Below are positions 5,796 through 27,833 of a stretch of 27,833 bases of DNA, piece by piece. The stretch's first letter is position 1. Each line of letters begins with the position of its first letter. Source of the DNA: Jaapia argillacea MUCL 33604 (Eukaryota; Basidiomycota; Agaricomycetes; Jaapiales; Jaapiaceae); contig KL197757.1 in NCBI GenBank assembly GCA_000697665.1, positions 6,687 to 34,519 of the forward strand, given 5' to 3'. The notes under the pieces are model-generated. The model had not been told where the DNA came from. It ran no database searches and saw only the letters and a program-made list of their open reading frames with translations. The position numbers and the translations under genes were made by a program.

Positions 5796-7505
5796 TGTGG
5801 GGAGCCCAGCTCACCTACGAACGGAACACTTCGAAAGCACAACTTCGAAGACAGCCCACGAAGAGAGAGGATCGGACGAACACAGTACCCAAGGCAGGAC
5901 ACAAGGACAATCAAAGTGAAGTAACGAGACAACGGAGATCAGCTCAGATAGGAAGTTGCGAAACGGATCAACGACTACGGAAGACGGACAGGATTCTGAA
6001 GCACAGCCTTGAGGAACAAAGCCAAACACTGGTTGCCCACAAAGTCAGTTACCTCATACAAAGCGCGTATCTGATCCGGGACTCTTGTGACCCCGAGGAA
6101 CTTAGAAGTCAAGAATCACGGCAATCATACGTTCTCTGATCATACGTCATCACTATCTCTATGTATACGGTTTGCATGAACGTCGGCTCACTACGATCTG
6201 GTCCATCCCCATATCCCCTATTCGATGAGCAAACAATCACCTAATAACCCTCGCGTACAGGTGATACTTCTTCATCACGTGAAGAGTCCTTGAGTCATCC
6301 CATTCGCTGGGACGATTCGGATCTGCCATGACACAATCCCTCATGGACTTGCTTGCAAGAGGAGCACGCGCACCCTCCTCCTTCGTATTCACAGAACCCC
6401 TCGAGAAGAACGCGCACGCCCTATCGATTCTCCCTCGATCTCCCGCTCTTGCTCCCTCCTCTCTGTGTCCGAGAAACTTCACTATATATCCTACGCGATT
6501 ACGTGGACCTCTCTTGAAAGCTTCACCTGATCTCGGTATGACGCGTACGCCTGCTCTATGTCGATCTATCATACACATGCTACCTTCCGTATATCTGAGG
6601 AAATTCACCCTATCATCTACGCGGTTACGTCAAACTCCTTTCGCAAGCTTCACACTACCTCCGTGTGCTGCTGCTCTCACCTCGGATGTACGGCCTTACT
6701 CTCGGTTTTGATGATTCTAGTCTACGGCAACCGTTCCTAATTCACCCTATTACACGCAACAACTCGCTTGTATGCTTCTCGATTCCATCCCCTACCGGTA
6801 CACTTGCAACTCCACATTGTGATTCGTCCAGGGCACGGCTAGTTAGGTATTGCACCAGGGACTATGGATAGTTTGCGGCATGGGACACGGGTAGTATATA
6901 TATCTGTACTATACATTTTGGAATACAAGTTCTCTCTGCTTCCTCTTTCTCCATCTCAAGTGATATTCAGGCTCTCGGGCAACGTTCACGACCTCGATGT
7001 TCACGACCTTACGATGTTCTCTGGTGACTCTTTATTTTTGATTCCTTAAACCACACTAGTGACTCTCAGGACTCCTGAATCTCTTCCTGCGACGTTTCAA
7101 GTGCTTTTACCACTTACGACTTAGTAATTTCTTCGTGTCCCGATTCTCTTAAGTACTTGTTCTTAGTTTGCTTCGTATCCCCGTGCTTTCTTAGTATTCC
7201 AAGACAACGTGCTTCTAGTTTCGATTACAATTTCCTTTGCTTGTCAGTTTTAGAGTACCGGATCGAATAGTAGATTAGATCCTGGGTCCGACTACTGATT
7301 ATCTCTGAACTTGCAGAACCTTCCTGCTCCGTGATCTTGCGTTGAGCGGTTATCTTATCTTGGACTCATCCAAACCCCACAATCATTCTTTGGGTCTGTT
7401 TCTTCTCTCAAGCTATCTAAAACAACTGAACTCCCATTCTTCGGTTTTTATCTGAAGACGAACCACCTTTCTCTCTCGGACCTCACGCACCCCAAGTACC
7501 CCACA
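5796..7505 (+). mobile_element. LTR-like insertion inside the transposase gene
   Basis: The segment begins TGTGGGGAGC and ends CCCCACA, giving 7-bp inverted termini with TG..CA ends as in LTRs. Deleting it joins the transposase frame (THTGDG-type block ending 5795 to the Trp-Val-Gln-Glu-Leu block at 7507) without a shift. Flanking pentamers GATGG (5791-5795) and AACGG (7505-7509) are only partly alike, so the target duplication is imperfect or the right edge is off by one base. It is CpG-rich, with a TATA run near 6893, an internal direct repeat (about 6480 and 6606) and no recognisable protein. At 1710 bp it is long for a solo LTR; a non-autonomous LTR element is the alternative. Confidence 0.7.
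6893..6904 (+). promoter_or_regulatory. TATA-like element in LTR-like insertion
   Basis: GTATATATATCT lies about two thirds of the way into the insertion, where a U3/R promoter could sit. This is positional inference only. Confidence 0.3.
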
Positions 7506-8757
7506 ACGGTTGGGTCCAAGAGCTGATACACAGACATCCTGACCAGATTAAAACAGAGCTGGGGATGTGACTGCATGTCTTTCAGCAGTTGATAGCAGTG
7601 CTGCAGGAATGTGGCCTCAGAGCATCAAATCATGTGTCCCTGGAGGAACAGCTTGCAATTTTCCTGTATGCTTCCATGACTGGCCTGTCAATTCGCCATC
7701 TTGGCGAGTACTTTCAATGTGCAAATGACACTATATCACAGTATGTTCCTATCTGTATGTTCTTGTATATATCCTCACATTTACATCAGCTACTTTCGCC
7801 ATATTCTCATTGCTCTTTCATCCCCACCCTTCTACCCCCGCTACGTCCACCTCCCTCCTGCAGACAGTCCTGTCCCTCCTGAAATCGCCAATAACCCAAA
7901 ATTCTTTCTGTATTTCTGCAGTGCCCTCAGTGTGATGGATGGCACTCAAATTGATTGCTGCCCATCAGCACTTGAGTGAGAAACTTGCCAAAATCAGAAA
8001 GGAGCTATCACCCAAAATTGTCTTGCATGTTGCTCATTCAATGCAATATTTCAGCACCTTATGACGGGCTGGGATGGATCAGCTGCAGATGCATCTATCT
8101 TCAATGATGCACGGCTGTTTGACTTGGCAATTCCTGAAGGAAGATACTTTTTGGCCGATGCTGGGTTTGGAATATGCAACTCGCTGCTTGTTCCATACCG
8201 CGGTGTTCACTATCACCTCCAGGAGTGGGGATGGGCAGCTGTCAGGTGTGTTTCTCTTTCATCAGTGAAAACAAGCCAGTACTATATTGAAGATAATGTC
8301 AGACCTGCAAGCAAGGAAGAGCTATACAATCTTCAACATGCTTCAGCATGAAATGTTGTTGAGCGTATCTCCAGCATCCTCAAGCACCGCTTTGCCATCC
8401 TCACCTGCCCACCTGAATATGACATGTCCATTCAAGCTCGTATCCCCCCGCTCTAGCTGCCATCCATAACTTCATCCACATTCGTGATCCAAAGGAGATT
8501 GAGGACTTCAATGGGTTTGATCCGAGAGACCCAAATCCTGGCAACTATGGAGAGCTAGTGAAGGGACCTGCAAACTGCTGGGAAAGGAAAAGGGCAGCTG
8601 ATGAGCAGGACCGGATAGCGCAGATGATGTGGACAGATTATCAATATATTATTCTTGAACAAGGGGACGCTGATGAATAGCACATTACATTGGAATTTTT
8701 TTCAGTTCAAACAATGTTCAATAGATTGCTTTCTCTATTGAACAGAACATAAGAAAA

Positions 8758-10001
8758 CTACTGAGGGACTACATTTGGGGCTGGAATCCTCATCTGCTCA
8801 AGTCTGAGATCAACCCAGGCCCTACGAAGGCCTTCGCTTTCGATAGTCATATATAAATCAGCAGCTTTGACATTGTTCTCGAACAAGTCCAACATTGCAA
8901 GGGTCTCACGAACAGGAAGATGAACCTCAAGTTGTTGCAACCAAGCAGCTGCTGCAGTCCTCTGCAATGGGGAAAGATGATGAACACCTGCAAGCTGTGA
9001 AACACTGTCACAAAAGGTTTCGTTGAACTCTGCAACCTCATCTTTCAATGTGAAGAGAGCAGACGGGCCTGTTGGTGCTTTGTGCTGACTTTGAGTAGAG
9101 GGGTGGGGGTGCCGGAAACAGCAGAGAGTTTGCATTTGGTACCAGTTTGTGGTTTGAGGGGTGTCTTCTAAAGAGGTGTTAAATAAGAAAATAATAACAA
9201 TAGGAACACATACAGGTGGAGCCTCCACCTCACTGTCTGAGGATGAAAGATCATCATCATCCTTTCCTCCTTTGCCACCCTCTACAACAGACTTCCCATC
9301 CTCACCATCTTCATCCTATTCAGGAACACCAGCACCTGTAGTAAGCCCCTCAAGCCCAGGACGGAACACGTGGGTCCCTTTCACAGTCAATGGCATGAGA
9401 CTTTGAACTCCATAGAAGTGAGTCCATCCCTTGTTACGAAATGGCTTCGCATTAGGGTGTTGCTGATGTGTTATCACAGTTACTCATAGATTGAGAAATC
9501 AGGTGAATGGTAGACATACCCTGACATAAACATCCCATACACTCTCGTTTGACTTGTCAACGTTGGCACCCTTTTTATCAGACCATGAAAAACCTGATGC
9601 TTTTTGGAGGGCAATGACAATGAGATAGGTCTCCTTCAACTTTATCATCTATCACCAGCTATCCCTGACAGTAGTGAGAGGAGAACGAACCTTGGCCCAC
9701 TTGTTCTTGCACGAAGATGGAGTTTTTGGCCCACCCAATGTACAAGTTCTCTCCAACTCCTCCGAAGCACCATACCAGGTGACAGCTTTAAAGTTCATGC
9801 CACCACCTGCCTCAGCATGGTGGTCCTCCAAATAGTGGATCAACAAAGTTTTGTCAATCACCATCCAGGCTGCGTGCAGAACCTGTGAAGTCTTCGATTT
9901 TGTGGAGGCAGGAGCACATGGTTTGTCATGCTCTTTTGCACAGGTATTGGAGGCCTTTGTGGCCTCGGCATCAGGAGAACGGTGGGGGGTTTACCTAGCA
10001 T
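8758..10001 (-). pseudogene. Myb/SANT-like partner protein of the Harbinger element
   Basis: In Harbinger elements a Myb/SANT-like protein binds the ends and helps the transposase act. Reading on the minus strand, about 9864-9700 encodes the first half of the fungal Myb_DNA-bind_3-type domain: a block with DKTLLIHYLEDHHAEAGGG, then FKAVTW and GGPKTPSSCKNKW. After a small frame change comes FSWSDKKGANVDKSNESVWD (about 9600-9540), then a donor GTATGT and an intron. Next is HPNAKPFRNKGW, followed by an acidic D/E/S-rich linker and a C-terminal helical region ending at 8758. A TAG stop interrupts the frame at 9316-9318. The ATG at 10001 is the best upstream start but needs a frameshift in a C run to join the domain. 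The gene converges on the transposase with 77 bp between the stops. Confidence 0.8.
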
Positions 10002-10563
10002 TATAATACATTATCGGAGCCGCAATGTCTGAAATATCTGTAATTCTGATAGTCGAGTTGATAATTGTAGAACCGGTTAAATTGCACAGGTGTGAGATTT
10101 TAGGGTGGATCGACACCCATTAGCAAGACAGACCTAATGCCCATGGCAGCCCATGATCACGTCCATCCAGGACTGAGAAATTCAACAACAGCAATTTCCA
10201 ACCATCTGAGATGCCTCTTAACTTTGTTTCTGGGGTCCTGAGGCTCTCCATTCAGGCTCGAAATAACAAGAATTCATATTCAAAAATCCACGTGGCTACC
10301 GAACCCTAGCAACAAACACAACAATATCTCGGAATACAGTGCAGGAAGGAAATCAACCACCCTCCTTCTTCCCTCAGGATCGGCACATCAAGCAAATGAC
10401 ATACCTGACTCCTGAGTGACCACAACCACACCCTTGTTACAACAGGCCAAACCAACCTGAGAGCCTTATTGAGCAGCAAGTCAAGACTCAGCATTGGAGG
10501 GCATTGGCCTCATCCCAAGTTGTCACACATCATGTGTGAGAAGTTGGAAGGTGGCTAACTTCC
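10002..10563. other. Harbinger internal sequence, no gene seen
   Basis: This stretch lies between the Myb-like gene and the LTR relic. Only short frames without motifs are present. It may hold the Myb promoter. Confidence 0.4.
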
Positions 10564-11234
10564 TGTTAAGAATCACACCGTGCTACACCTATTTTCATTT
10601 TTCTTGTTATTCAACACTCCTCGTGGATATCTGATCCTTCCATATATAGATCATCAAGCACTACAACCATATTGATCCTGAACACAAGGGACGGGTTTAT
10701 ATCCCTTCAACATTCCTCCAGTACATCCGCACTCCCGACCATCCGACCCCTAGTGCATATCTGCACACTCAACCCCATTGTACCCAACCTCTGACTCCTC
10801 GTTACACCGACACTCCACCTTCCAGTATGGCCCAGGCCATGGACTACAGACCCCTATGTCTCTGACTCGTAGATCAGACCATCGACTGTGGACTACGGAC
10901 TATGGACCCCTAACTATGGACTCCTATTTCCCTGACTCACTTCGACTCATGCTTACTACTGTTTACTACTGTCTTACTATTGTCTTACTCATCACTACTA
11001 CGGACTACAGACTGTGCTTCATCTTAGTATATATACCTCCCTGTATTCGCTAGTATTCCCTATCTTGTTCACTTTGTCAATATAGATTGTTATCTTTATT
11101 CACATTGTTCCAACTTGATCCCTGTCTGATCAATCTGTCTGGAAACCTCTGATAGTCTCTCATCCTCTCGTCATTCTACTCTGTGGCTGTAGCCTAGGTA
11201 ACATCAGAGAAGTATCAAGTCTTTCATCGTATAC
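10564..11234 (+). mobile_element. LTR relic, same family as the solo LTR at 20238-20900
   Basis: It begins TGTTAAGAATCACACCG and follows the reverse complement of 20900-20262 along its whole length, with scattered differences and small indels. Shared blocks include a run of GGACTACGGACTATGGACC-type short repeats, TATA-like TATATATAC near 11027 and a final CAAGTCTTTCATCGTATAC. Homology stops at about 11234; the last ~24 bp of the complete LTR, ending CTTAACA, are missing. No target duplication could be matched (left flank CTTCC), consistent with loss of the right edge. It lies inside the Harbinger element in opposite orientation to the other copy. Confidence 0.8.
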
Positions 11235-14168: not shown

Positions 14169-14956
14169 TTAAGGTAGCTTATCGGCCTGAATTGGCCACC
14201 CAAGGGCCTCATGCAATACAAGATTGATTCTAACTGCTTCATTCCTCCTGAATGCACCAAGTATCAATGAGCAAATGCGACACCAAGCCCTTTCTTTTGG
14301 GTTAAGGTAGCAGATCGGTTCTAGAGGGCAGTCGCTGGCCAAATGGCCATGTGTCACACAATTGAAACATTCCCCTGTACATACGCCAGCGGTCCTGGGG
14401 TAGAGTGGGAAGGGTGTGCCCTGTTCGACACATGTACGCTCGCCATACTTCTGAAACCAGGCCTGCTTTTGGGCTTCATATGCAAGGTGACCTGTCAGAG
14501 TATCTGGGTGATGAGGTAGTTCATCGATCCTAGCTTGAAAGGCTGCCTTCTCTGCATCGGTCATTGCTGCGTGCATTGGCTGAGCTGGAGCCGGTTGTCG
14601 CTGTACGGGGTAAGTGGACGCATTTCTCTGCACAACTCCCGTGATTGGATTTGCTGGTGCTGCGACTCAAGCAACCACTACAGGGGCTCTAGGTGCTGCT
14701 GATGGTGGGCCAGGTGGGTTGGAAGATGCTGTGGGGAGGCACTGTCGTGTTGCAGGAGATTCGAGAAGCTGGAGTCGACGTGCAAGGTCACGACTTATCT
14801 CCTGATCACGTTGCATCCTCTCCACTCCATCCTTAATGTGCTCCATATCAACCTCCCTAACGGCCTTGCAAAAGTCCGCCCAATTCGCATGCTTCGAGTC
14901 TACCTTCAACTTGAGGATATCCAGCAATGATTTGCGGACCATCCCAATGTACATGT
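14169..14956 (-). pseudogene. Ty3/gypsy-type gag, C-terminal part (split by hAT)
   Basis: Gag is the structural protein that packages retrotransposon RNA. This part continues the frame of 20101-21197 across the hAT insertion. It enters at the target site GTACATGT (14949-14956) and reads GMVRKSLLDILKLKV and HIKDGVERMQRDQEISRDL, then a proline-rich linker. A zinc knuckle follows at 14328-14369, CFNCVTHGHLASDC, matching the CX2CX4HX4C pattern of nucleocapsid domains. The frame ends at TAA 14169-14171. One in-frame TGA lies at 14667-14669, explainable by CGA to TGA. With both insertions and the duplicate target bases removed, the whole frame counts 403 codons including stop. Confidence 0.82.
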
Positions 14957-14972
14957 TAAGGCTCAGCATGGA
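14949..14972. repeat. hAT left target duplication and terminal repeat
   Basis: GTACATGT (14949-14956) is the target duplication, repeated at 20101-20108. The terminal repeat TAAGGCTCAGCATGGAT follows at 14957. Confidence 0.92.
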
Positions 14973-14979
14973 TACAAGT

Positions 14980-15123
14980 GTACCTACAGCACCTACAGGT
15001 AGCATCCGTGGGATACCCACAGGTTCGAATGGCTTTGTATATCCGTACCTACACTATCTACACCTGGTGGATGTAGGTGGGGATTCGTCTACCAACAGTA
15101 TCCAACCACAGGTACCTGTATCC
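14980..15123. repeat. hAT left subterminal repeats
   Basis: Several ACCTACAGGT, CCCACAGG and GGTACCTGTATCC motifs cluster here. GGTACCTGTATCC at 15111-15123 has its exact reverse complement at 19930-19942. Such subterminal repeats are usual transposase-binding sites in hAT elements; the binding role is inferred. Confidence 0.6.
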
Positions 15124-15152
15124 GAAATCTAAATATACATTGTCAACAGCGA

Positions 15153-18093
15153 CTAAGGATCAATCATCTCAACCTCACTACCACTACAAGTACTTGAGGT
15201 TACATTCGACTCTGATGGTAAGGTACGCCGCTTACCCTTGGAGGGATTCTTCCTCCTGATGTTCTCAATTAGCTCATCATGGGGGACCAGACCATTGTCG
15301 GACCATGACCCAAGCACACACGCTGCTCAGATAGTCTCATCAGCAAGGGAGTGACGTAGCTTCGAGACAAGACGACCACCACTAGAGAATGATCGTTTGA
15401 CATCAGTAGATGCAGCTAATGAAAGTTGAGTTAGCATTGTGTTAGGCAAATTGACTGGCTCGAGATCGGAGAGAATATATTACCTGGCGCAGTTAGAAAA
15501 TCAAGTGCCATTGTGGCGAGAGGATTCTTCTCCGGTGTTTGACTGGTCCAATAGATGATTGGGTTGTCGACATGAGATAGGTTGGGGGTGGATAAGTATT
15601 CAGTGAGTGCGTCCTTGGACAAGGTGTCACCGCTGCGGTGAACGTTGCAGAAGTATTTTTGCGTTGCCGAACTCTTCAAAAGCAGTGAGCAGGAGACAGA
15701 TAGTGAGGCTTGACAAAACGTACTTGGTTTACAGGGGCTGGGAGAGGTAGTGTGATGGTAGGCTTATACTTCGCTTCCCATTCTTCCCGTACAACATCGA
15801 TGGCCTCCTTGATCCAAGACTCTTGCCACTTCATTTCACGGAAGTATGAGAGCTTATAGGTGGGGTAGAGGACTGTTCAATCTTGTAAGTCTTGCGAGTG
15901 GGGAGGATGAAGATGAAATATAAAATTACTCATCGCGGCTCGATACATGATTGAGTCATCGGTTCGGCTATAGTACTTGTTCATGATCTTTAATCCTCGT
16001 GTTGCTGCCATGCGGACGGCAGGCAGATAAGCCTCGTTGCAAGCCCAGTCGTCCATGGCATTTGTGAGGCTGTCCATGTAGGGGATGACTTGATGGAGTA
16101 AAGGTGTTCCCGTTTCCGAGATATCCTTTGTTGCGACAAGGAAGAGCTGTGGTAGCTTTAAGCCAACGACAAAGAGAAGATATTGAGATGAAAGAACTTG
16201 GACATACATCAAGTAGGGGATTGAGCTATTCAAGCAACAGCCATTCCTTCTCGTCGAGGATGAATCAACGCAAGCGAACCCCATCTCACTTGTTGAACTC
16301 CGCAAAATTGCAGAGCCCATCCAAAATGTCCTTCATCGGAATGGCACGACCCAGCATTTTGGCAACGGTATTCCACCGTGTCGCCACCAGCCGAAGTAGC
16401 ACCCTCTTGGGGAGTTTGTGGTGCCGACAGAGCTTGTGGAGTTGCTCTCGGATTGTCGGGGAGTGGAAAACCTTCTTGCTGAGGTTGCTGATCTGTATGA
16501 AGGGAGATCATCTCTATCATACAAGCAAATTTTATCTATGCATACCTTGAGGACAGAGGAGCAGCCCAAGGTAACCTGAGCTCGTGTGAGGGGACCTATT
16601 GCAAACTCAGCCACCTCGACCTCCTCATCCAACTCGGCTAGAATTCTGTCATCTTCGGCTGCTGCATCCTCATCCAACGGGTCCAATGCCGAAGTGTCGT
16701 CATCGTCGTCATCCCCATCTTCGAGCTCGGAGAGAATTGCCTCATCAGCAGCAGCTTCGTCAGCCTTGTTGCTTGACTTTCGAGATCGAGCAAATTGAGA
16801 CAAAATTGCCTTGGAAACGAAGCAGATTCAGTATTGTATCACGAGGGTGGACACGAGCATACCTTAACGACGAGATTCAGGATATGGGCAAAGCACATGA
16901 CCCGATATAAAGCTCCACGGAATTTCGGAAGCGAGACACCAAGGGTGTCAATCATAGGCCCATTATTCGAGGCATTATCGCAAACAACACCGAGAACCTA
17001 GGTTCTGTGTCAAGGTTCTTGTTGCTCATTATCGAGGATTGAATAGCTTACTTTGTCTTGAATCCTGTATTCCCTCAAGCATTCCACCAACCTCTCACTA
17101 AGGTAAACCCCTGTATGTGCCTTCGTCATCCTGTAGACAGTTAGCATCAGCAAGACTTGTATATACACTACAACAACGTGACTCACTTGATGAAGTCAAG
17201 AGTGAATCGCCGCATCTCTCCCTTGTAAAGCAGGAGTACCACGACACCGAGGAATGAGAGAACATTTGGCGTTGTCCAACCATCAACTGCCAAATGTAAC
17301 ATTCCGAAATGGGCCTAAAAGCGTAGTTACCTTTAGCAACAGTGGATTGAGGCTAGATATGATAATCACCTGAAGGAATGCTGCAATATGAGCCTTCGAC
17401 AAAGAAAACATTTCCTTGACATCGCGAGAGACGGTACTCGGACTTGGGATATCAATATTACCGTGGAGCATTGTGAAAATCTCCACAAGCTCCTCGTCCT
17501 CGACGATGACAAAGGGCCAGCTACGCCTCGCACACCACATAGCAAGGAGGTACTGGAACCTAGGATAGCTATACGATGAGCCCTGAGCGAAGGCTCGGAG
17601 TGCCCCAGTTTGCGTTGTTACTTGAGGCTCGCAGTGCTTGAGGTGGCTTTGTAAATTTGATGTTGAGTCCTCGAAGCGTTCGCGGCTAACAGAAACGCTC
17701 GGGTTCCTGTTGAATTGTGAGTGTTCGTACAGACATGAGGAAGTAACAAGACACTTACTTCTTACAGACAAACTTATACATAATCTTGTCGCCCTTGCGT
17801 TCGATCGTGGGCTCGAGGTAGTGGGTGTAAACCCCAGATCGCCACGCCTGCATCTGTGCCACTGAAACGAAAGTTAGTCCCAGTCAATCGAGCAAGATTA
17901 GAGTGTGATACGAACCAAGAACATCCTCCTTCATACCCTTGTATTTCGCCGCGAGCCATGCATGCTTCTGTTGTGCAGCGGTCAGGTTTTCATTCGCGGG
18001 CGTAGATGACGATGACATTGGGGTAACAGCCTCGGTTTGCTCAGGAGACGAGGAGCGTGTGCGCGCCCGTTTGGATCGCTTGCGAGACACCAT
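15153..18093 (-). pseudogene. hAT transposase, 12 exons, four nonsense codons
   Basis: A cut-and-paste transposase of the fungal hAT type, about 778 residues from ATG 18093 to TAG 15153. Exons from the 5' end: 18093-17916, 17861-17759, 17706-17370, 17314-17187, 17130-17052, 16997-16863, 16809-16546, 16492-16208, 16155-15930, 15872-15724, 15673-15484, 15415-15153; all junctions keep phase. In order: a basic N-terminus (RKRSKRARTR), a BED-like zinc finger (FVCKKNPS to LQSHLKHCEP), VDGWTTPNVLSFLG (first Asp, residue about 217), VVCDNASNN (second Asp, about 282), FAHILNLVVK, an acidic insert, ISETGTPLLHQVIPY, and the C-terminal dimerisation region. Stops at 16286-16288, 16265-16267, 16226-16228 and 15327-15329 all fit C-to-T changes. 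The conserved VERxFS motif reads VKRSFS (Lys codon 15396-15398). Confidence 0.9.
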
Positions 18094-19353
18094 GGGGGTG
18101 AAGCAGGTGTGAGGGAGGTCGGAGGGTGGAGATTTATGATGCTGCAATAAAATCAAACGCGTTCAGCAAATAGACTGGATATAGCAGGACAAAGACAATA
18201 CGAACCACAAGTCAGGAGTATTTGACCACCTCAGAACATCTGGATGGGGGCTGTTCGACTCGGGGTGCTGCGATGTGTTGGTGATGAGACAAACCATCTA
18301 AATTGAGATGGTGCTCAAGTCAGCCGACGTGGTCCCGCCCTACAGAAACCTGGGATAGAGGTCTAGAGAGGTATAAAATTGTCAGATCAAGCAGTTGCAA
18401 CAGCGATTGTCCGGCTTACCGGATGATGGGCAGTCTCACCCACTACACCAACACAAAAATGAAATTTATTGCTGCCCGCGAGCGTATCTCGGGCATCCTA
18501 AAGGTCCTACTGCATTTGAGGTGAAGTTGAGCTGTCCGGAAATGGCAGAAAAATTGCAAAATAAAACTCACAGATGGATCGGCTGATAGGGGGGCACCGA
18601 GGGCGGCACGCGTTGGATATGCTGATCGGGGATGCCATTTGGATAGCTCCAAGCCACGAAAGTCACTGTCCAACAGTGTCGAGGCAAGTCAGTGGCAAAA
18701 CAATGTTCCACAGGATAAAACCTACCACAAATGATATTAGAATTTTGCATCGATGAATTGCACTGAGGGATTTGCGAGACATCTCGTCCTGTACTTGAGA
18801 GGGACCATGGTTTGCATGCAGTCGTGGACTTCAAAACATGGAAGGGTTCCGTGTTTGGCAGCCTGCATCGGACAAATTGCATGGTCCGTGCGCAATGCAT
18901 AGGCGGTCCGTGCGCGCAATTTCGACTATATAGTCTCCCCAAACTCAAGCTCCATTCCCAACCACCGCCCTGCGACACCTGAAGGGTGTTCGACTCGGAT
19001 GAGCTCAACAACGTCCACCGTGAAGCTATTATTGTTTCGACCATTGTAAATTATTTCTATCTGATCGGGAGTCTATAGTATATACTCAGATTAAGTATTT
19101 CAGTCTCGGTGTGTCTCGACGAATACCAATCCATACGGTTGGCTAGCCGACATCGACAACGAGATAACAATGAAGGTCTCTGTCCACTGTCCCATCTTCA
19201 GGGACCATCGACTTGATTTGGCCTCAGCAATCAAGTTCCTCGTTACAAAAGATGCCCTGTCTGTTAATTTTCTAACCCAATTTCAGGTCGTTCTAGTATT
19301 CACGCTCATAGACAGCCACGGAGCGAGTGTCTACTCAAGTCTGTAAAATCATC
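18094..19353. other. hAT intergenic region between divergent genes
   Basis: About 1.26 kb upstream of both genes of the element, probably holding both promoters. CTGTTCGACTCGG near 18247 recurs as GTGTTCGACTCGG near 18986, and GGTCCGTGCGC occurs twice near 18881-18918. TATA-like runs lie near 18926 and 19076. Open frames here lack motifs. Confidence 0.45.
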
Positions 19354-19838
19354 ATGGTCACGTTGGTAAGTCGCCCAACATTATAATGTTGATTTTGTTC
19401 TGATGCGACATTCGATAGCTTGTACGACCGCAATTGCCATTGACTAGGTGGCCCAATGTACTCCTCGATGCTGACCACAACATTTTGGCTGCAATGAGGA
19501 GTGCCCAACGGTTCATCAGCAATCTTCGTGACCTACAACGTCTACTCGCCGACCCACAGCTCATCAATTCACCAATGCTTTTCCACAACACTATGCAGGT
19601 TGCTGCTCTCGCTGGTCGTCTCGTCGATATTGGAGGTGGGGATATCTTAGGGGCTGTTGAACAAGTTTGCGCTGCCTTAACAGTGAGTCCAAGACTGTCT
19701 CGTGATGATCTGCATTCGCTGAATGCTTATGACCTTCTGAACCAGGACATTTTGGTCTTTGAGGATGCCTCAGATTTGCCTGCTCTTGAGCCAGTAGAAG
19801 CACATGATGTTATTCTGACTACTGGGGAGCTCGACTAA
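19354..19838 (+). CDS. Accessory protein of the hAT element, unknown function
   Basis: Unrecognised product of 143 residues. Exon 1 is only four codons (ATG GTC ACG TTG, 19354-19365). It is followed by a 53-bp intron with clean GTAAGT donor and TTCGATAG acceptor (19366-19418), then a 140-codon exon to TAA 19836-19838. The protein has a Leu/Arg/Pro N-terminus (LLVRPQLPLTRWPN), a helical middle (AMRSAQRFISNLRDLQRLL) and an acidic C-terminus with many Asp and Glu. No stop or frameshift interrupts it, in contrast to the transposase in the same element. It lies wholly inside the hAT terminal repeats, transcribed away from the transposase. It may be an element-encoded helper or a captured host gene. 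Reading without the intron, the start would be ATG 19434. Confidence 0.6.
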
Positions 19839-19886
19839 CCTGTCTAGTGTACCAGTATTAAAAAAATCTCGATTATGCAGTCAATA

Positions 19887-20065
19887 CCTGTATGTACATG
19901 CAAATACCCGTAGGATAGGTGTATCTGACGGATACAGGTACCTGAACCCATGAGTAACTGGAATACCTGTTTAACCGTACCTGTGGATACAGGTATTTGT
20001 TGTCAACTTACCTGCTGGATGTGGGTGGACTCTGAGAAACTTTGCATATCTGTAGGTTCGGATGC
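19887..20065. repeat. hAT right subterminal repeats
   Basis: Dense copies of TACCTGT, GGATACAGGTA and ACCTGTGGATACAGG occur just inside the right terminus, mirroring the left end. GGATACAGGTACC at 19930-19942 is the exact complement of the motif at 15111-15123. Confidence 0.65.
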
Positions 20066-20083
20066 AGATGAATCTGTGGATGC

Positions 20084-20108
20084 ATCCGTGCTGAGCCTTA
20101 GTACATGT
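20084..20108. repeat. hAT right terminal repeat and target duplication
   Basis: ATCCGTGCTGAGCCTTA (20084-20100) is the terminal repeat. GTACATGT (20101-20108) is the second copy of the target duplication. Confidence 0.92.
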
Positions 20109-21197
20109 TTGTCATCTGTATCTTTGCCCCTGCTGCCAACTTCTCCACCTTGTTGGCCCACGCAATGTGTGACCATACTTTGATACCTGAGACCTCAACT
20201 TTCTTCCCCAACTCTTCGTCCTTCAACGCTGTGGAGGTGTTAAGATCGTTACTTCAACGAAGTATACGATGAAAGACTTGATACTTCTCTGATGATACCT
20301 AGGCTACAGCCACAGAGTAGAACGACGAGAGGATGAGAGACTATCAGAGGTTTCCAGACAGATGATCAGACAGGGACCAAGTTGGAACGATGTGAATAAA
20401 GATAACGATCTATATTGACAAAGTGAACAAGATGGGGAATACTAGCGAATACAGGGAAGTATATATATTAAGATGAAGCACAGTCCGTAGTCCGTAGTAG
20501 CGATGAGTAAGACAGTAGTAAGCATGAGTCGAAGTGAGTCAGAAGAATAGGAGTCTGTAGTTAGGGGTCCATAGTCCGTAGTCCACAGTCGATGGTCTGA
20601 CCTGTGAGTCAGAGACATAGGGGTCCGTAGTATATGGCCCAGGTCGTACTGGAAGGTGGAGTATTGAAGTAACAGGAGATCGGAGTGTCGATGATTGAGG
20701 GATGATGCACTAGAAGTCAGATGTGTAGGATCGAGGATGTATCAGAGGGATGTTGAAGGGATATGTTCCTGTCCCTTGTATTCAGGAGGAATATGATTGT
20801 GATGCTTGATGATCCCATATAAGGAAGGATCAGATATCCGCGAGGAGTGTCAAGATAACAAAAAATGAAAAGTAGGTGTAGCGCGGTGTGATTCTTAACA
20901 GGAGGTGTTGAGTAGTTCATCCACGTAATCGTCAGCAGTCTTCTTCATGCCAGTGATCTTTGGCCATCGTAAGTGGAAGGCGGCAAGGATACTTGACCAC
21001 GTAGCCTTCTCAGTGGGACCCAATTCCTCCCACCACATATCAGCTGCTCCTCCTGCATGTAGGAAGTATTTGAATTGCATCTTTCTGAAGTCGTCGTTCT
21101 CATTGGCTGACCATCTCATATAGGCGCAAACAAAGTTTTCAGGGTTCTCGGCAGGATTGCCGTCACCTTTGAACGGTTCCAGTCCAGTGGACGGCAT
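20101..21197 (-). pseudogene. Ty3/gypsy-type gag, N-terminal part (split by solo LTR)
   Basis: From ATG 21197 the frame reads a capsid-like region: GLEPFKGDGNPAENPENFV, then WSANENDDFRKMQFKYFL, GGAADMWWEELGPTEKATW and FHLRWPKI. This is the retrotrans_gag pattern of fungal Ty3/gypsy elements (a folded helical domain with a Trp-rich middle). It reaches the solo LTR at 20900, resumes at 20237 with ALKDEELGKKVEVSGIKVWS and HIAWANKVEKL, and reaches the hAT target site at 20108. Upstream of the ATG the same frame stays open through a polyproline stretch to a TAG at 21327-21329. No 5' LTR or primer-binding site was found. The frame itself carries no stop in this half. Confidence 0.82.
20238..20900 (-). 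mobile_element. Solo LTR, 663 bp, with 5-bp target duplication
   Basis: Plus-strand ends are TGTTAAGATCG and GATTCTTAACA. The terminal 8 bases TGTTAAGA and TCTTAACA are perfect inverted repeats with TG..CA ends. GGAGG flanks both sides (20233-20237 and 20901-20905). On the minus strand it begins TGTTAAGAATCACACC and ends CTTAACA, and it matches the relic at 10564-11234. No internal coding region is present, so it is a solo LTR left by recombination. It interrupts the gag frame exactly at the GGAGG site. Confidence 0.93.
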
Positions 21198-21705: not shown

Positions 21706-22095
21706 TGTCTCGGAGGATGAGACTTCAAGAATTTCTAATGTAGCGCTCGAGTTCATACAGCGCGCGTGGGATTTATTACGGCGCGGAAACGATTTTTTGT
21801 GCAAAAGAACCATCATATGAAGTCACTATGTTTATGAACGCTGGTACAGTAGCGGGCTCTTGCCGCGCATGCGGCCTTTCGCGTTATATACTAAAGTAAG
21901 CCAAAAGCCCCCAGAGCATGAACCTCCCAATGATATTGAAACACAAGAAACTCTTACTTCTGTCATTCATGTAGTTGTACAACAAGATAGACAAACCGGA
22001 GATACATATATTTTAAGACGCAACCTTTCGATGACACCACAACGAACACAAAAAGTCCCACAAGAGTCCACACCACCAATCGTAACAATCGGAAG
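21706..22095. other. Downstream flank of the monooxygenase gene
   Basis: A plus-strand frame from 21860 has no recognisable motif. From about 22010 the sequence resembles the stretch from about 26215 downstream of the second monooxygenase copy, for example AACACAAAAAGTCCCA and AACACAAAGAGTCCCA. The duplication therefore includes 3' flank. Confidence 0.45.
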
Positions 22096-24861
22096 TCAAA
22101 GTTTAGTCAAAACCCTCTCCAAACTCCCTTTCAACCCCTCCACAACCCCTCCCCCACTCGCACCCACACCATCCCTCCCAACCTTCCCGATCCTCTCCCC
22201 ATTAACCTCCCACCATTTCTCCACCTCCTCATCAGCATCATACCCAAACTGAACGATGTTCTTCTTCCTATCGGCCCATTGATTCGGGTTGCCTTCGTTG
22301 CCTTCCATCTCTCTAGCTACTTGTTTAGCTATCTCTTCGTCGAGTTCGTACCTGTTGGGTCGTTAGCTATCATGACCGATAGGGAGGGGAGGGGAGGAGA
22401 GAGGGAAGAAAGGACGTAGCGAGGGTATGAAAGGGTGGGAAGCAAACCGAACTCACCTAATCCCAGTCATCAAACTTTCCCTCCCCCAAATATCCGCCTT
22501 CCTCTTCTCCTCCTCACTCTCATTATGTATGACATGATACAACTCCGCCAACATCGCTTTCCTCATCTCGGCATCGCGATGTTGTTGTTCAGGTCCGTCG
22601 GGGAGGTGGAATATATGTTGGTTTAGGCGGGATGAAGCCTGTGTGAGGGCGGTGACGTCAACAACAACAATAACGAAAGGACGAGAACGAGAAAACGGGG
22701 CCTCGGAGAACAAGTGGAAGAAAGCAACTAACCTGAGTATTCCCAGTCCTCTCAAGCCTCAACTCCTGATACGCCTCCAAAAGCGGTTTAATCTGTGCCC
22801 TACTCTCCAACCTCGAAAACAGATTGCCAAGAACAGCAGCGTCTTCTATAGCCATCGCCGCTCCTTGGGCTCGGTAGGGGAGCATTGGGTGGCATGAGTC
22901 ACCTGTGGGTGGGGGTGGTCAGATGGGAGCGAGGGGGTAGAACGGGTGAGGGGGGAGGGGGAGAAGGGTGGGAGGCGGGAATAAGGAACACGAAATAGGT
23001 GTGCTTAACGAACGACGGAGTGGGGAGGAGGAAGGGACAAAGGAAGGAAGAGGAACGACATACCCAACAGAACGACGCTCCCACTGGGATGAACCCAACT
23101 ATCCAACGGCAACCTATCCATCAACCTCCATTTCAATGTGGAAGAAACCGACGAAGGAGTTTTCGGACTCTGTTACGAAAGGGTTCGTTAGAATGGTCTC
23201 GAAAGGGTTGGTGAGGGGGCAGAGAAGAGAAGGACGGAAGACGAGAAGAAAAGGCGGGAGAAACGAAGCCGCGAACTCAAGACACGGAAAAAGGGAAGTG
23301 GGCGGGCACGAAGGGGAAGCGGAGGTATCGGTGCCGAAAGAAAAAGGGTCGGTACCGAGAGAAAGAACAGGAGGGAAGAGAAGCAGAAATGAGAGAAGAG
23401 AAGGAAAGAGGAACGCGTCTACGAGGACTCGATGATATCTCGACGATCAATGGACGTATATGAACCCAACGAGGATATGGACAACCGCGCAAACGACGCA
23501 TACACCCACAAAGTCGACGCGTATATCCCCAAGACGACGCATAACACCAAGCCAAAACCTCAGAACCGAAAATCACCATCCCGCCAGCTCCCATCCCCAA
23601 GCTCCAGCACAAAGTAAGGGGCGAAAACTGGCGCCTATACGCGAAACGACCACACACGACCACGAAACGACGATCACGGACGCGAAAAGATACCAAAACG
23701 ACGACGCGTGAACACGAAACCCACCTGGGTTCAAAATCCCCAAAATCGGTCCTCATCTTATCAGCGCTCCCTTCCGCAGTCCAACTCTCAACCGAACCGT
23801 CCTCTGGATGAAGGAGGACTAGGTTGAATTCTTTTTTTGCGCGCTGTTGGGGTGGAGGTGAGTCGCGATGGAATGGAAAGTGAAGGCCAGGAAGGGCATG
23901 GAAGGAGGGAGGAAGGGAGGAACGAAGGAAGAGGGTGGAGAGGGAAGTAGGACTCACGATATTATATGCCATCAAATGTCTCCCCGGAGCCATCCAAGCT
24001 GTCATTTCTGGAGTTTCGACGAAAGGGCGTAATTCTGGGTCTTGGAGCATTAGGTCCGTTGGGATTATAGCTCTGTATGCTGCGTCGCCTGGTTTGATGG
24101 GATTTAGGCGTTGTTTCGAAGAAGGGAGGGAGGAGGAGGAGGAGACTCACCAGTTGGATCTGCAACGACCTTCTTCCCGAGCACCACCTCCCTGATGCAC
24201 GACTTTACCCCATCACATCCAACAATCAAATCTCCCTTGATGACTTCTCCCGAGGCGAGCGTAACCGAAGGTTGAGGGTTGGAAGGTGAAGAAGGCGTAA
24301 CAGACACAACAGTGCTGTTCAACCGTAACTCCATATTAGGAGCCGCCAAATCGAAAAGCAACTTGTGAAAATCGGCGCGATGCATATGATAATACGGAGC
24401 ACCCCTCCCAACACCCTCCTCAAACTGACTTCCCCATCTCGTATACCCCACCCTCTCACCAGTCGAATACCTCCTAAAGACAATAGCCTCAGGCCTAACA
24501 GCAACTTGTTTCATCTTCTCGCCCAAACCCCATCTCTCGAGTAAACGAGTGACGTTAGGAGTGACTTGGATGCCAGCGCCGACTTCGCCTATGGCTGTGG
24601 CTGATTCGATTAGGGTGATGGAGTGGCCGGAGGAGGATAGGGTGTGTGCTGCTGCTAGACCGCCCAAGCCACAGCCTACTATGAGGATGTGAAGGGGGAG
24701 AGGGGCGGGTTGGTAGAGGGGTGTTTTGGCGGCGGATGGGAGAGATTGGGAGGAGGAGAGGGAGGAGTCGGGCGGGACCTAGATGGACTATGGGGTGGGG
24801 TTAGAGATGGGTCTGCGAGGAGAGTGGGAGGACGTACTGATTTGTCTGTTGATCCTGACAT
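22096..24861 (-). CDS. FAD-dependent monooxygenase, salicylate-hydroxylase-like
   Basis: A probable class A flavoprotein hydroxylase that uses NAD(P)H and oxygen on an aromatic substrate. Eight exons: 24861-24838, 24778-24151, 24088-23958, 23843-23725, 23167-23064, 22902-22733, 22638-22457, 22351-22096; 537 residues with phases kept. Visible motifs: ILIVGCGLGGLAAAH (GxGxxG FAD site, residues 43-48), GDLIVGCDGVKSCIREV (DG motif), ESWTAEGSADKM, WRLMDRLPLDSWVHPSG and GDSCHPMLPYRAQGAAMAIE (second FAD motif). The C-terminal extension is Glu/Lys-rich, making it longer than the usual 420-480 residues. Oddities: intron 4 is 557 bp, and exon 5 stays in frame only if the second AG of a CAGAG acceptor is used, because one base is missing against the other copy. 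The substrate cannot be told. It may be functional. Confidence 0.85.
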
Positions 24862-25779: not shown

Positions 25780-26314
25780 CTCCCAGTCATCACCTCGTTG
25801 AAATGATCCGTAGAACCCTTCCAGGCAATCCATCTTAACTTCTTGTGGAAACGATTCGTCGTTAGCCCCCTGAAATATTACGGGAAATCCGCGTTGATGT
25901 AGTAAACACAAGTGAATATATGACTTTCAAGGACATCCTTTTAACTTTCGAGGGAAATGCGAGTCGGGCGAAAGCTCCCTTCTGAAACACCTCTACAAGC
26001 AACCTGAGTCTGGCGCGAATCCCAATGGTACACCAGACACCATCGCGTTGTCACGACGAGCCGAAGCTCACTAGGAGGTATTGTAATAGGAGGGTGCAAC
26101 TTTCGGTAGACAGTCTCGACACTCTGCTCAGGATGCGAGAGTGCGCGAAGAAACCCGCATTTCATTCAACTGTTACGCTTGAGCGACATGAACAACAATG
26201 AAGAAACCAATGATGCAGATATTTTCAATGAACCGAGATTTCAACAAGACCATCGACGAACCAACAAACACAAAGAGTCCCAACTCCAAGCGTCCGCACC
26301 AAAACCAACAAGGA
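25780..26314. other. Intergenic, no gene seen
   Basis: Only short frames. The last ~100 bases are similar to the 3' flank of the first monooxygenase copy. Confidence 0.45.
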
Positions 26315-27833
26315 TCAAAGTTTAGTCAAAAATCTCTGCAAATTGCCTTTCAATCCCTTCTTCTCTCCCACCCAGCCCCTCACCCTCCCTCCCAATCCTC
26401 CCAATTAACCTCCCACCTTTTCTCCGCTTCCTCGTCCGCATCATACCCAAACTGTAAAACATTCTTCTTCCCATCAACCCATTGGTTCGGGTTGCTTTCA
26501 TTCCCTTCCATCTCTTTCGCTCCTTGCTTAGCTATCTCTTCGTCGAGTTCGTATCTGTGAGGTTGTTAGCCGTCATGACGCATAGCGAAGGGGGGTTGAG
26601 GTGGGGACGTATCGAGAGTAGGAGAACGAAGGGGGTAGGGTAGTGAGAGAAGGAAGGCGAGAAAGGGCGTACCTAATGCCAGTCATCTGATAATCAATCC
26701 CCCAAATGTCCGCCCTCCTCGCCTCCTCACTCTCAATATGAACAACTTGATACAATTCCGCCAACATCGCTTTCCTCATCCCTGCATCACGATGTCTCCG
26801 TTCAGGTCAGTCGGGGAGGTGGAATATATGTTTGTTTGGGGCGGGATGAAGCCTGAGTGAGTGTGATGTCAACAACGAACGAAAGGATCAAGCAAGAAAG
26901 GCAAAACGGGAGAATGGGGTGGAGGAAAACCGAGCGAAAGAAAAGGTAGGCAAGGAAGAAAAGACTAACCTGAGTATTCCCAGTCTTCCCAAGCCTCGAC
27001 CCCTGATAGACCTCCAAAAGCCGCTTAATCTATTCCCAACTCTCAACCTCGAAAAAAGGCTACCAAGAACTACAGCGTCTTCAACGACCATCGCTGCTCC
27101 TTTTGCGCGGTGGGGAGTATTGGGGGTGGCATGCGTCGGCTGTAGGGTTAGGGAGAGTTAGTTTGGTTCGTGGGAGGGAGGGGGAGGGGGGTAAGGAGGA
27201 AAGTGAGGGAGAGAAGCGGGAAGGAAGGACAAAGAAAGTAAATGACATACCTAAAAAAAGGACGCTTCCACTTAGGATGAACCCAACTATCCAACGGCAA
27301 CCTATCCATCAACCTCCATTTCAGCACGGAAGGAACTGGCGAGAGGAGTTTTCGGACTCTGAGGGGTGGAGAGGGTCTGAAGTTTCGACGAAAGGGCATA
27401 ATCTGGCTCTTGGAACCTTAAGTCTGCCAGGATTATGGTTCTGTACGCTGCGTCGTCTGCTGGTTGGGGGTGTTGGACGGTTTTTTGAAAGCGAGAGAGT
27501 GAGGAAGAACGGCTTACCTATCGAATCTACTACGACCTTCTTACCAAGGACCACCTCCCTAATACACGACTTAACCCCATCACATCCAACAATCAAATCT
27601 CCCTTCATTACCTCTCCAGACGCGAGAGTGATTGAAGGTCGAGGGTTGGAAGGTGATGAAGGCGTAACAGACACGACGGGACTGTTCAACCGTAACTCCA
27701 TATTCGGGGGGCGGCGAATAAAAAAGCAGCTTGTGGAAATCCCCGCGATGCAAATGATAATGTGACGCTCCCCTACCCACACCCTTCTCTAACAAACTTC
27801 CCCATCTCGTATAACCCAGCCTCTCGATCCAAC
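26315..27833 (-). pseudogene. Second monooxygenase copy, internally deleted and frameshifted
   Basis: A tandem paralogue of 22096-24861, cut by the window edge at its 5' side. Recognisable pieces from the 5' side: GRGASHYHLHRGDFHKLLF and SVTPSSPSNPRP (exon 2 equivalent), GDLIVGCDGVKSCIREV, and LCPFVET (start of exon 3). The next piece is RVRKLLSPVPSVLKWRLMD, which belongs to exon 5: the end of exon 3, exon 4 and the introns around them are gone, with the join near 27362-27395. Exon 6 (EDAVVLGSLFSRL), exon 7 (MRKAMLAELYQVVH) and exon 8 equivalents follow, with several frameshifts and altered splice sites; GSVVLLG is degraded to KWKRPFF. It cannot make a full protein. Confidence 0.85.

Follow-up and report, generated by a model that had tools for sequence, protein, structure and literature searches.

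A putative second gene, divergent from the transposase, in a hAT transposon family of the fungus Jaapia argillacea

hAT elements are generally regarded as one-gene systems. In other superfamilies, second element genes such as TnpA of Spm/CACTA and mudrB of Mutator assist or regulate transposition. The fungal hAT element MarorhAT-10 of Marasmius oreades is 3396 bp in length, and the transposase is the one gene named in the excerpt of its description used here (PMC9674265). The literature searched offers one clear precedent for a hAT or other fungal element with an additional gene: the TET+ hAT7 elements of Puccinia rusts bear an additional TET/JBP dioxygenase gene and have 7-bp target-site duplications (TSDs) (PMC12730594). 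The same paper describes PIF/Harbinger elements, in which the transposase is accompanied by a Myb/SANT partner. In the Mutator-like VANDAL elements of Arabidopsis, the protein VANC targets tandem motifs and removes methylation (PMC5735166).

We analyzed a stretch of 27,833 bp (hereafter, the window) from the genome of J. argillacea MUCL 33604 (43.7 Mb, 95 contigs). The window is C49:6687-34519; copies of the hAT element found in the genome are named by contig, and C49 is the window copy. Like MarorhAT-10 as excerpted (PMC9674265), the element has a hAT transposase, terminal inverted repeats (TIRs) and a C-terminal dimerisation region; unlike it, the present element is 5144 bp long and carries a putative second, divergent gene (the ORF). 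It shares with TET+ hAT7 (PMC12730594) an extra gene beside the transposase of a fungal hAT, but the ORF is divergent, has no Pfam domain (hence no TET/JBP) and lies within 8-bp TSDs. PIF/Harbinger elements likewise combine a transposase with a second small protein, although they belong to another superfamily and the Myb/SANT match of their partner is absent from the ORF protein (Pfam). The likeness to VANDAL elements, again of another superfamily, lies in general traits: a fast-evolving second protein encoded by the element, and tandem repeats in noncoding element DNA. By general description the ORF also resembles TnpA and mudrB, which are second genes of elements in other superfamilies. No description of the present second gene was found in the literature searched, which was largely non-subscription; Repbase may record it. 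The features of the element are as follows, with window positions.

14957-20100, no strand: whole hAT element, 5144 bp (TIRs, 8-bp TSD, hAT dimerisation domain in the transposase of the C45 copy)
14949-14956, no strand: left TSD GTACATGT (duplication scan; flanks with the element deleted give a single open gag-like frame)
20101-20108, no strand: right TSD GTACATGT (duplication scan)
14957-14976, plus strand: left TIR (end-to-end comparison)
20081-20100, minus strand: right TIR, identical to the left at 18/20 bp (end-to-end comparison)
19880-20100, no strand: right subterminal region, rich in CAGGTA/TACCTG (hexamer count)
15153-18093, minus strand: hAT transposase gene of several exons with four in-frame stops (tblastx against the C9 and C45 copies)
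18883-18913, plus strand: two GGTCCGTGC repeats (at 18883 and 18905) upstream of the ORF (repeat search)
18924-18935, plus strand: TATA-like site GACTATATAGTC (same relative place in 6/6 copies looked at)
19354-19365, plus strand: putative exon 1 (MVTL; other copies have a longer, different first exon, and the N-terminus is uncertain)
19366-19418, plus strand: intron 1, 53 nt (donor and acceptor at the matching place in 6/6 copies)
19419-19682, plus strand: exon 2, 264 nt, 88 aa, with the conserved motif LPLTRWPN (copy alignment)
19683-19745, plus strand: probable intron 2 of 63 nt, which keeps the frame and holds no stop in the window (donor/acceptor comparison)
19746-19838, plus strand: exon 3, 30 aa plus stop, with an acidic tail (DLPALEPVE) (copy comparison)

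The window was scanned for exact 8-bp duplications around 11-bp inverted repeats (no more than two mismatches, 1.2-9.5 kb apart). A single pair was returned, delimiting 14957-20100 with TSD GTACATGT; the hAT termini that the original prediction had placed around the ORF are thus borne out by the TIRs and the TSD. Across the genome, the TIR pattern occurred 15 times with up to two mismatches, against three times for the reversed control. Four complete copies could be delimited by 8-bp TSDs, which match at 8/8 positions in C49 and C9 and at 7/8 in C13 and C45; the other three copies measure 5834 bp (C13, about 690 bp longer than the window copy), 5381 bp (C9) and 5482 bp (C45). CAGGTA/TACCTG hexamers in the window copy are found seven times in the last 350 bp, three times in the first 350 bp and once in the interior. 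In the joined exon segments of the C45 copy, the hAT dimerisation domain PF05699 scored 24.0 bits (cut-off 21.4, E = 3.3 × 10−5) and the hAT RNase-H model PF14372 scored 22.9 bits (cut-off 27). The element has the features of the hAT superfamily, namely 8-bp TSDs, short TIRs and a dimerisation domain.

The element interrupts a gag-like frame on the minus strand (14709-14956 and 20109-20258), and the joined flanks form one open frame. A zinc-knuckle ORF is found at 14169-14666 (Pfam zf-CCHC). Inverted repeat copies of about 680 bp (10558-11234 and 20262-20906, 84% identical) flank the hAT and are possibly LTRs of two retroelements. Elsewhere in the window, a Harbinger-type transposase fragment (DDE_Tnp_4, E = 3.4 × 10−10) and a nearby divergent Myb/SANT-like ORF (E = 0.022, below the cut-off), at 7980-8351 (plus) and 9652-9990 (minus), probably represent a PIF/Harbinger element and the second gene that such elements usually have. 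A FAD-monooxygenase-like gene region is present in two diverged copies (22040-24457 and 26262-27825, 73-80% identical), with FAD_binding_3 found in the first copy only.

The transposase gene runs on the minus strand from about 18093 to 15153, so that the ORF and the transposase are divergent, as originally described; these limits are approximate, with the start taken from tblastx and the stop position read by eye. The four stops attributed to the transposase were also seen: they fall within exons conserved in tblastx comparisons with C9 and C45; the last exon holds one of them and a single other exon the remaining three. Transposase omega was 0.07-0.13 in five older copy pairs and 0.97 in the C49-C13 pair.

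The ORF starts with an ATG at 19354, is interrupted by an intron at 19366-19418 (GTAAGT...ATAG) and is then open from 19419 to a stop ending at 19838. Intron 1 was found in all six copies at the same codon, with a GTAAGT or GTGAGT donor 49-58 bp ahead of the AG acceptor. The original prediction of a spliced 143-aa protein holds as to the ORF, which is real, but the length needs revision: owing to the second intron at 19683-19745, as read from the copy comparison, the product is probably 122 aa. This intron is 63 nt long and stop-free in the window, so it had been taken as part of one exon. Its GT donor is present in 5/5 copies that reach that place, and exon 2 measures 264 nt up to this donor in C49, C13, C45 and C9 and 258 nt in C7, with C65 truncated. 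A homologous CAG acceptor occurs in three of the five (C49, C13 and C45). Its loss in C9 and C7 makes exon 3 less secure.

Least secure in the gene model is the 4-aa first exon. It has four codons in the window copy and C13 and about 24 in the B-type copies C45, C9, C7 and C65, and because the first exons differ among copies, the N-terminus of the ORF is uncertain. A spliced coding exon further upstream was also considered; a phase-0 TAA no more than two codons from the alternative donor, in 4/4 B-type copies, speaks against it. Damage is seen in several copies: exon 3 of C13 lacks 1 bp just inside its boundary, exon 2 of C7 contains a stop, and the putative first exon of C9 also carries one (read by eye).

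We searched the whole genome with the translated ORF (E up to 10) and obtained at least 10 stretches, in C49, C13 (two), C7, C45, C65, C9 and C40 (three). A search with the C45 relative gave at least seven stretches on the same seven contigs, and among the matches listed in either search of the 43.7-Mb genome none lay outside the hAT family. The transposase search gave 13 stretches with eight strong loci (C49, C13, C26, C9, C45, C7, C40 and C65). The ORF is present at seven of these eight; at the exception, C26, similarity is limited to the left half within the 10 kb taken. In C49, C13, C9, C45 and C65 the ORF and transposase stretches point away from each other with 1.5-2.3 kb between them. 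The distance rises to 10.7 kb in C40 and 12.1 kb in C7, where roughly 9-10 kb of other sequence separates the homologous parts. Two weak matches are fragments, C30 with the right end and an exon-3 fragment only, and a second C40 fragment with the right end and part of the ORF. The weak hAT matches in C92, C89 and C37 (E = 6 × 10−5 to 1 × 10−3) were taken as other families; the scan found no element ends in these stretches, but it depends on an exact 8-bp duplication and overlooked the C13 and C45 copies too.

Because of this co-residence at 7/8 loci, the kept splice and TATA-like sites and the purifying selection in older pairs, the ORF is best read, from the copies compared, as the second of two genes in this hAT family. 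The prediction had been of a second protein borne by the element, and the relatives in the same hAT family and the constraint in older pairs agree with it. Neither an absence of homologues nor homologues in non-hAT contexts without purifying selection was seen within this genome.

Pairwise codon models were fitted to exon 2 of six copies, giving 15 non-independent pairs. Omega was below 1 in 14 of the 15, and mostly 0.17-0.46 in older pairs. The pairs C45-C65 (omega = 0.17, p = 1.6 × 10−5), C9-C65 (0.20, p = 1.6 × 10−4), C45-C7 (0.36, p = 0.003), C49-C45 (0.36, p = 0.004) and C7-C65 (0.37, p = 0.056) have low values, of which those within the B group are firmer because deep exon-2 pairs are near saturation. 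The C49-C13 pair points in the opposite direction (omega = 3.34, p = 0.038). C13-C7 was left out of the evidence, its null fit being unsound (LRT 62). Thus the dN/dS check proposed for the ORF indicated purifying selection in older pairs, with C49-C13 the contrary case.

The length of the ORF means little, because 24 stop-to-stop frames in the window reach 139 aa or more. An intact ORF beside a dead transposase had been offered as a sign of selection. This argument does not hold: scaled from four stops over about 700 transposase codons (an assumed figure), the probability of no stop in the ORF is about 0.50; C13, the closest copy, has a frameshift; and omega for C49-C13 is 3.34. Frame +1 of exon 2 is open in 5/6 copies, and each other frame is stopped in at least 5/6. 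Copies with 35-41% ORF protein identity retain intron 1, the intron-2 donor and the TATA-like site. What goes beyond chance is this conservation in diverged copies, not length or intactness.

Transposase identity is about 70-76% against those 35-41%, so the ORF protein evolves much faster, a pattern that would fit a role directed at the host as well as one directed at the transposase. The C49 and C13 elements differ at 283 positions, of which 160 are C49 CpGs lost in C13 and 24 the reverse. CpG decay thus dominates recent change, and the C13 differences carry the signature of methylation-linked decay. The CpG observed/expected ratio is 0.37 in the C13 copy and 0.78 in the window copy. Judging from these comparisons, both the ORF and the transposase appear to have been constrained in ancestral elements and to drift after insertion.

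Upstream of the ORF, GGTCCGTGC occurs twice in the window, both times at this place. The motif GGTCYRTG is found three times at exact 14-bp spacing in four B-type copies, twice at 22 bp in the window copy and once recognisably in C13, and the TATA-like site then follows. The triple array has four exact matches in the genome (C7, C9, C45 and C65), all upstream of the ORF, and none for the reversed control. Between the transposase and the ORF, about 1 kb is conserved as DNA in the C45 copy (L015, about 6380-7580), with equivalents in C9, C65 and C7. A third gene was considered for this stretch and rejected: in the B-type copies its translations contain stops and its gaps break the frame, and the stretch is therefore read as noncoding. 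It looks like a long leader or a regulatory stretch.

The halves of the element differ in divergence. C45 and C9 are 66% identical in the left half (3025 columns) and 79% in the right half (2085 columns), and their third-position differences are 191/355 in the transposase against 20/88 in the ORF (Fisher, p = 1 × 10−7). The right half is thus younger than the transposase half between these copies, which suggests that the ORF-bearing half was exchanged or converted between the C45 and C9 lineages. For C49-C45 the counts are 197/353 and 56/88 (p = 0.23), and for C49-C9 160/352 and 51/88 (p = 0.04), with the ORF more diverged. With AU p = 0.25 and 0.19, topology tests are compatible with one tree for both halves, so module exchange is judged from divergence depth only.

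The 122-aa model has a pI of 4.46, and the acidic tail in the C49 and C45 models a pI of about 4.05 and a net charge of −9. AlphaFold, run with five sequences and intron 2 read through, placed helices at 12-44, 52-72 and 74-89 in a weak model (mean pLDDT 50.5, block means up to 78). The product is accordingly predicted, at low confidence, to be helical with an acidic tail. Searching for protein homologues had been proposed as a check; no significant relative was returned from Pfam (no family at E up to 1, hence no TET/JBP and no Myb/SANT), PHROGs (best E 0.25, an entry of unknown function), PDB sequence profiles (nine matches up to E 10, best 0.38) or IMG/VR (none of 61 pattern matches held up in tblastn), and the homologues listed within this genome all belong to the ORF's own hAT family. 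Foldseek, queried with the weak model, gave 287 matches up to E 10 and none at 0.001, the best being T4 UvsY (E = 0.51).

On these grounds we are highly confident that the ORF is a genuine gene of its hAT family. It lies in the right half, is divergent and has two introns; an element-specific repeat array and a TATA-like site precede it, and it was under purifying selection in ancestral elements before decaying after insertion like the transposase. Its product may be small, helical and non-enzymatic, with a tail that is acidic and rich in hydrophobic residues; together with proteins of the element or the host it would promote expression or transposition of the element itself, as a transcription co-activator or a transposase partner, in a dose set by the ORF's own promoter array. 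A protein-partner or activation role may be suggested because a helical core and an acidic, hydrophobic-rich tail suit it, and we propose a helper or activator role only tentatively. The explanation as a whole, a genuine hAT gene with a product that promotes expression or transposition of the element, has in our judgement about an even chance of being right.

The product could instead be an element-encoded repressor that binds the transposase or the element promoter, limits copy number and autoregulates through the repeat array. The position of that array just upstream of the ORF's TATA-like site, its confinement to the hAT family, the few element copies in the genome and the acidity of the protein are all consistent with this. 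Pfam recognises no DNA-binding domain in the protein, however, and selfish copies would be expected to shed a pure repressor readily, yet the ORF is kept at 7/8 loci; we consider repression unlikely.

To the same degree improbable is an anti-silencing factor which, by analogy with VANC, would counter host DNA methylation or heterochromatin on the element. The CpG-type decay (160 of the 283 C49/C13 differences) suggests that the elements were probably methylated, and fast protein evolution and tandem repeats in noncoding element DNA would also fit. However, the protein is acidic and lacks a known DNA-binding or demethylase domain, and the repeats are confined to the ORF promoter.

Captured cargo, one of the roles first envisaged, would make the ORF a host gene, and other fungal DNA transposons do bear extra genes, such as TET/JBP, that passed between lineages (PMC12730594). 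We regard it as very improbable because no relative outside the hAT family was among the matches listed in this genome and the ORF is at 7/8 strong transposase loci, in a family with deeply diverged members. A chance open frame upstream of the transposase is hardly credible: the window has 24 frames of such length, the lack of a stop is about 50% likely and omega for C49-C13 is not below 1, but diverged copies keep the frame open, the amino acids over third positions, and the splice sites.

Returning to a genuine gene whose product promotes the element, a more far-reaching form may be considered, although we find it rather doubtful: the second gene would be a self-regulated, fast-evolving and exchangeable module of a two-gene fungal hAT lineage, encoding a small acidic helical protein under an element-specific tandem array, partnering the transposase or countering silencing, and passing between hAT lineages as a right-half cassette. 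As long as its function awaits demonstration, the consequences beyond transposon biology are modest. For hAT elements themselves, a conserved second gene of no known family, constrained by purifying selection and equipped with a promoter array of its own, makes it directly testable whether some of them need or profit from a partner protein, and it may be a candidate instance of accessory modules passing from one fungal transposon lineage to another.
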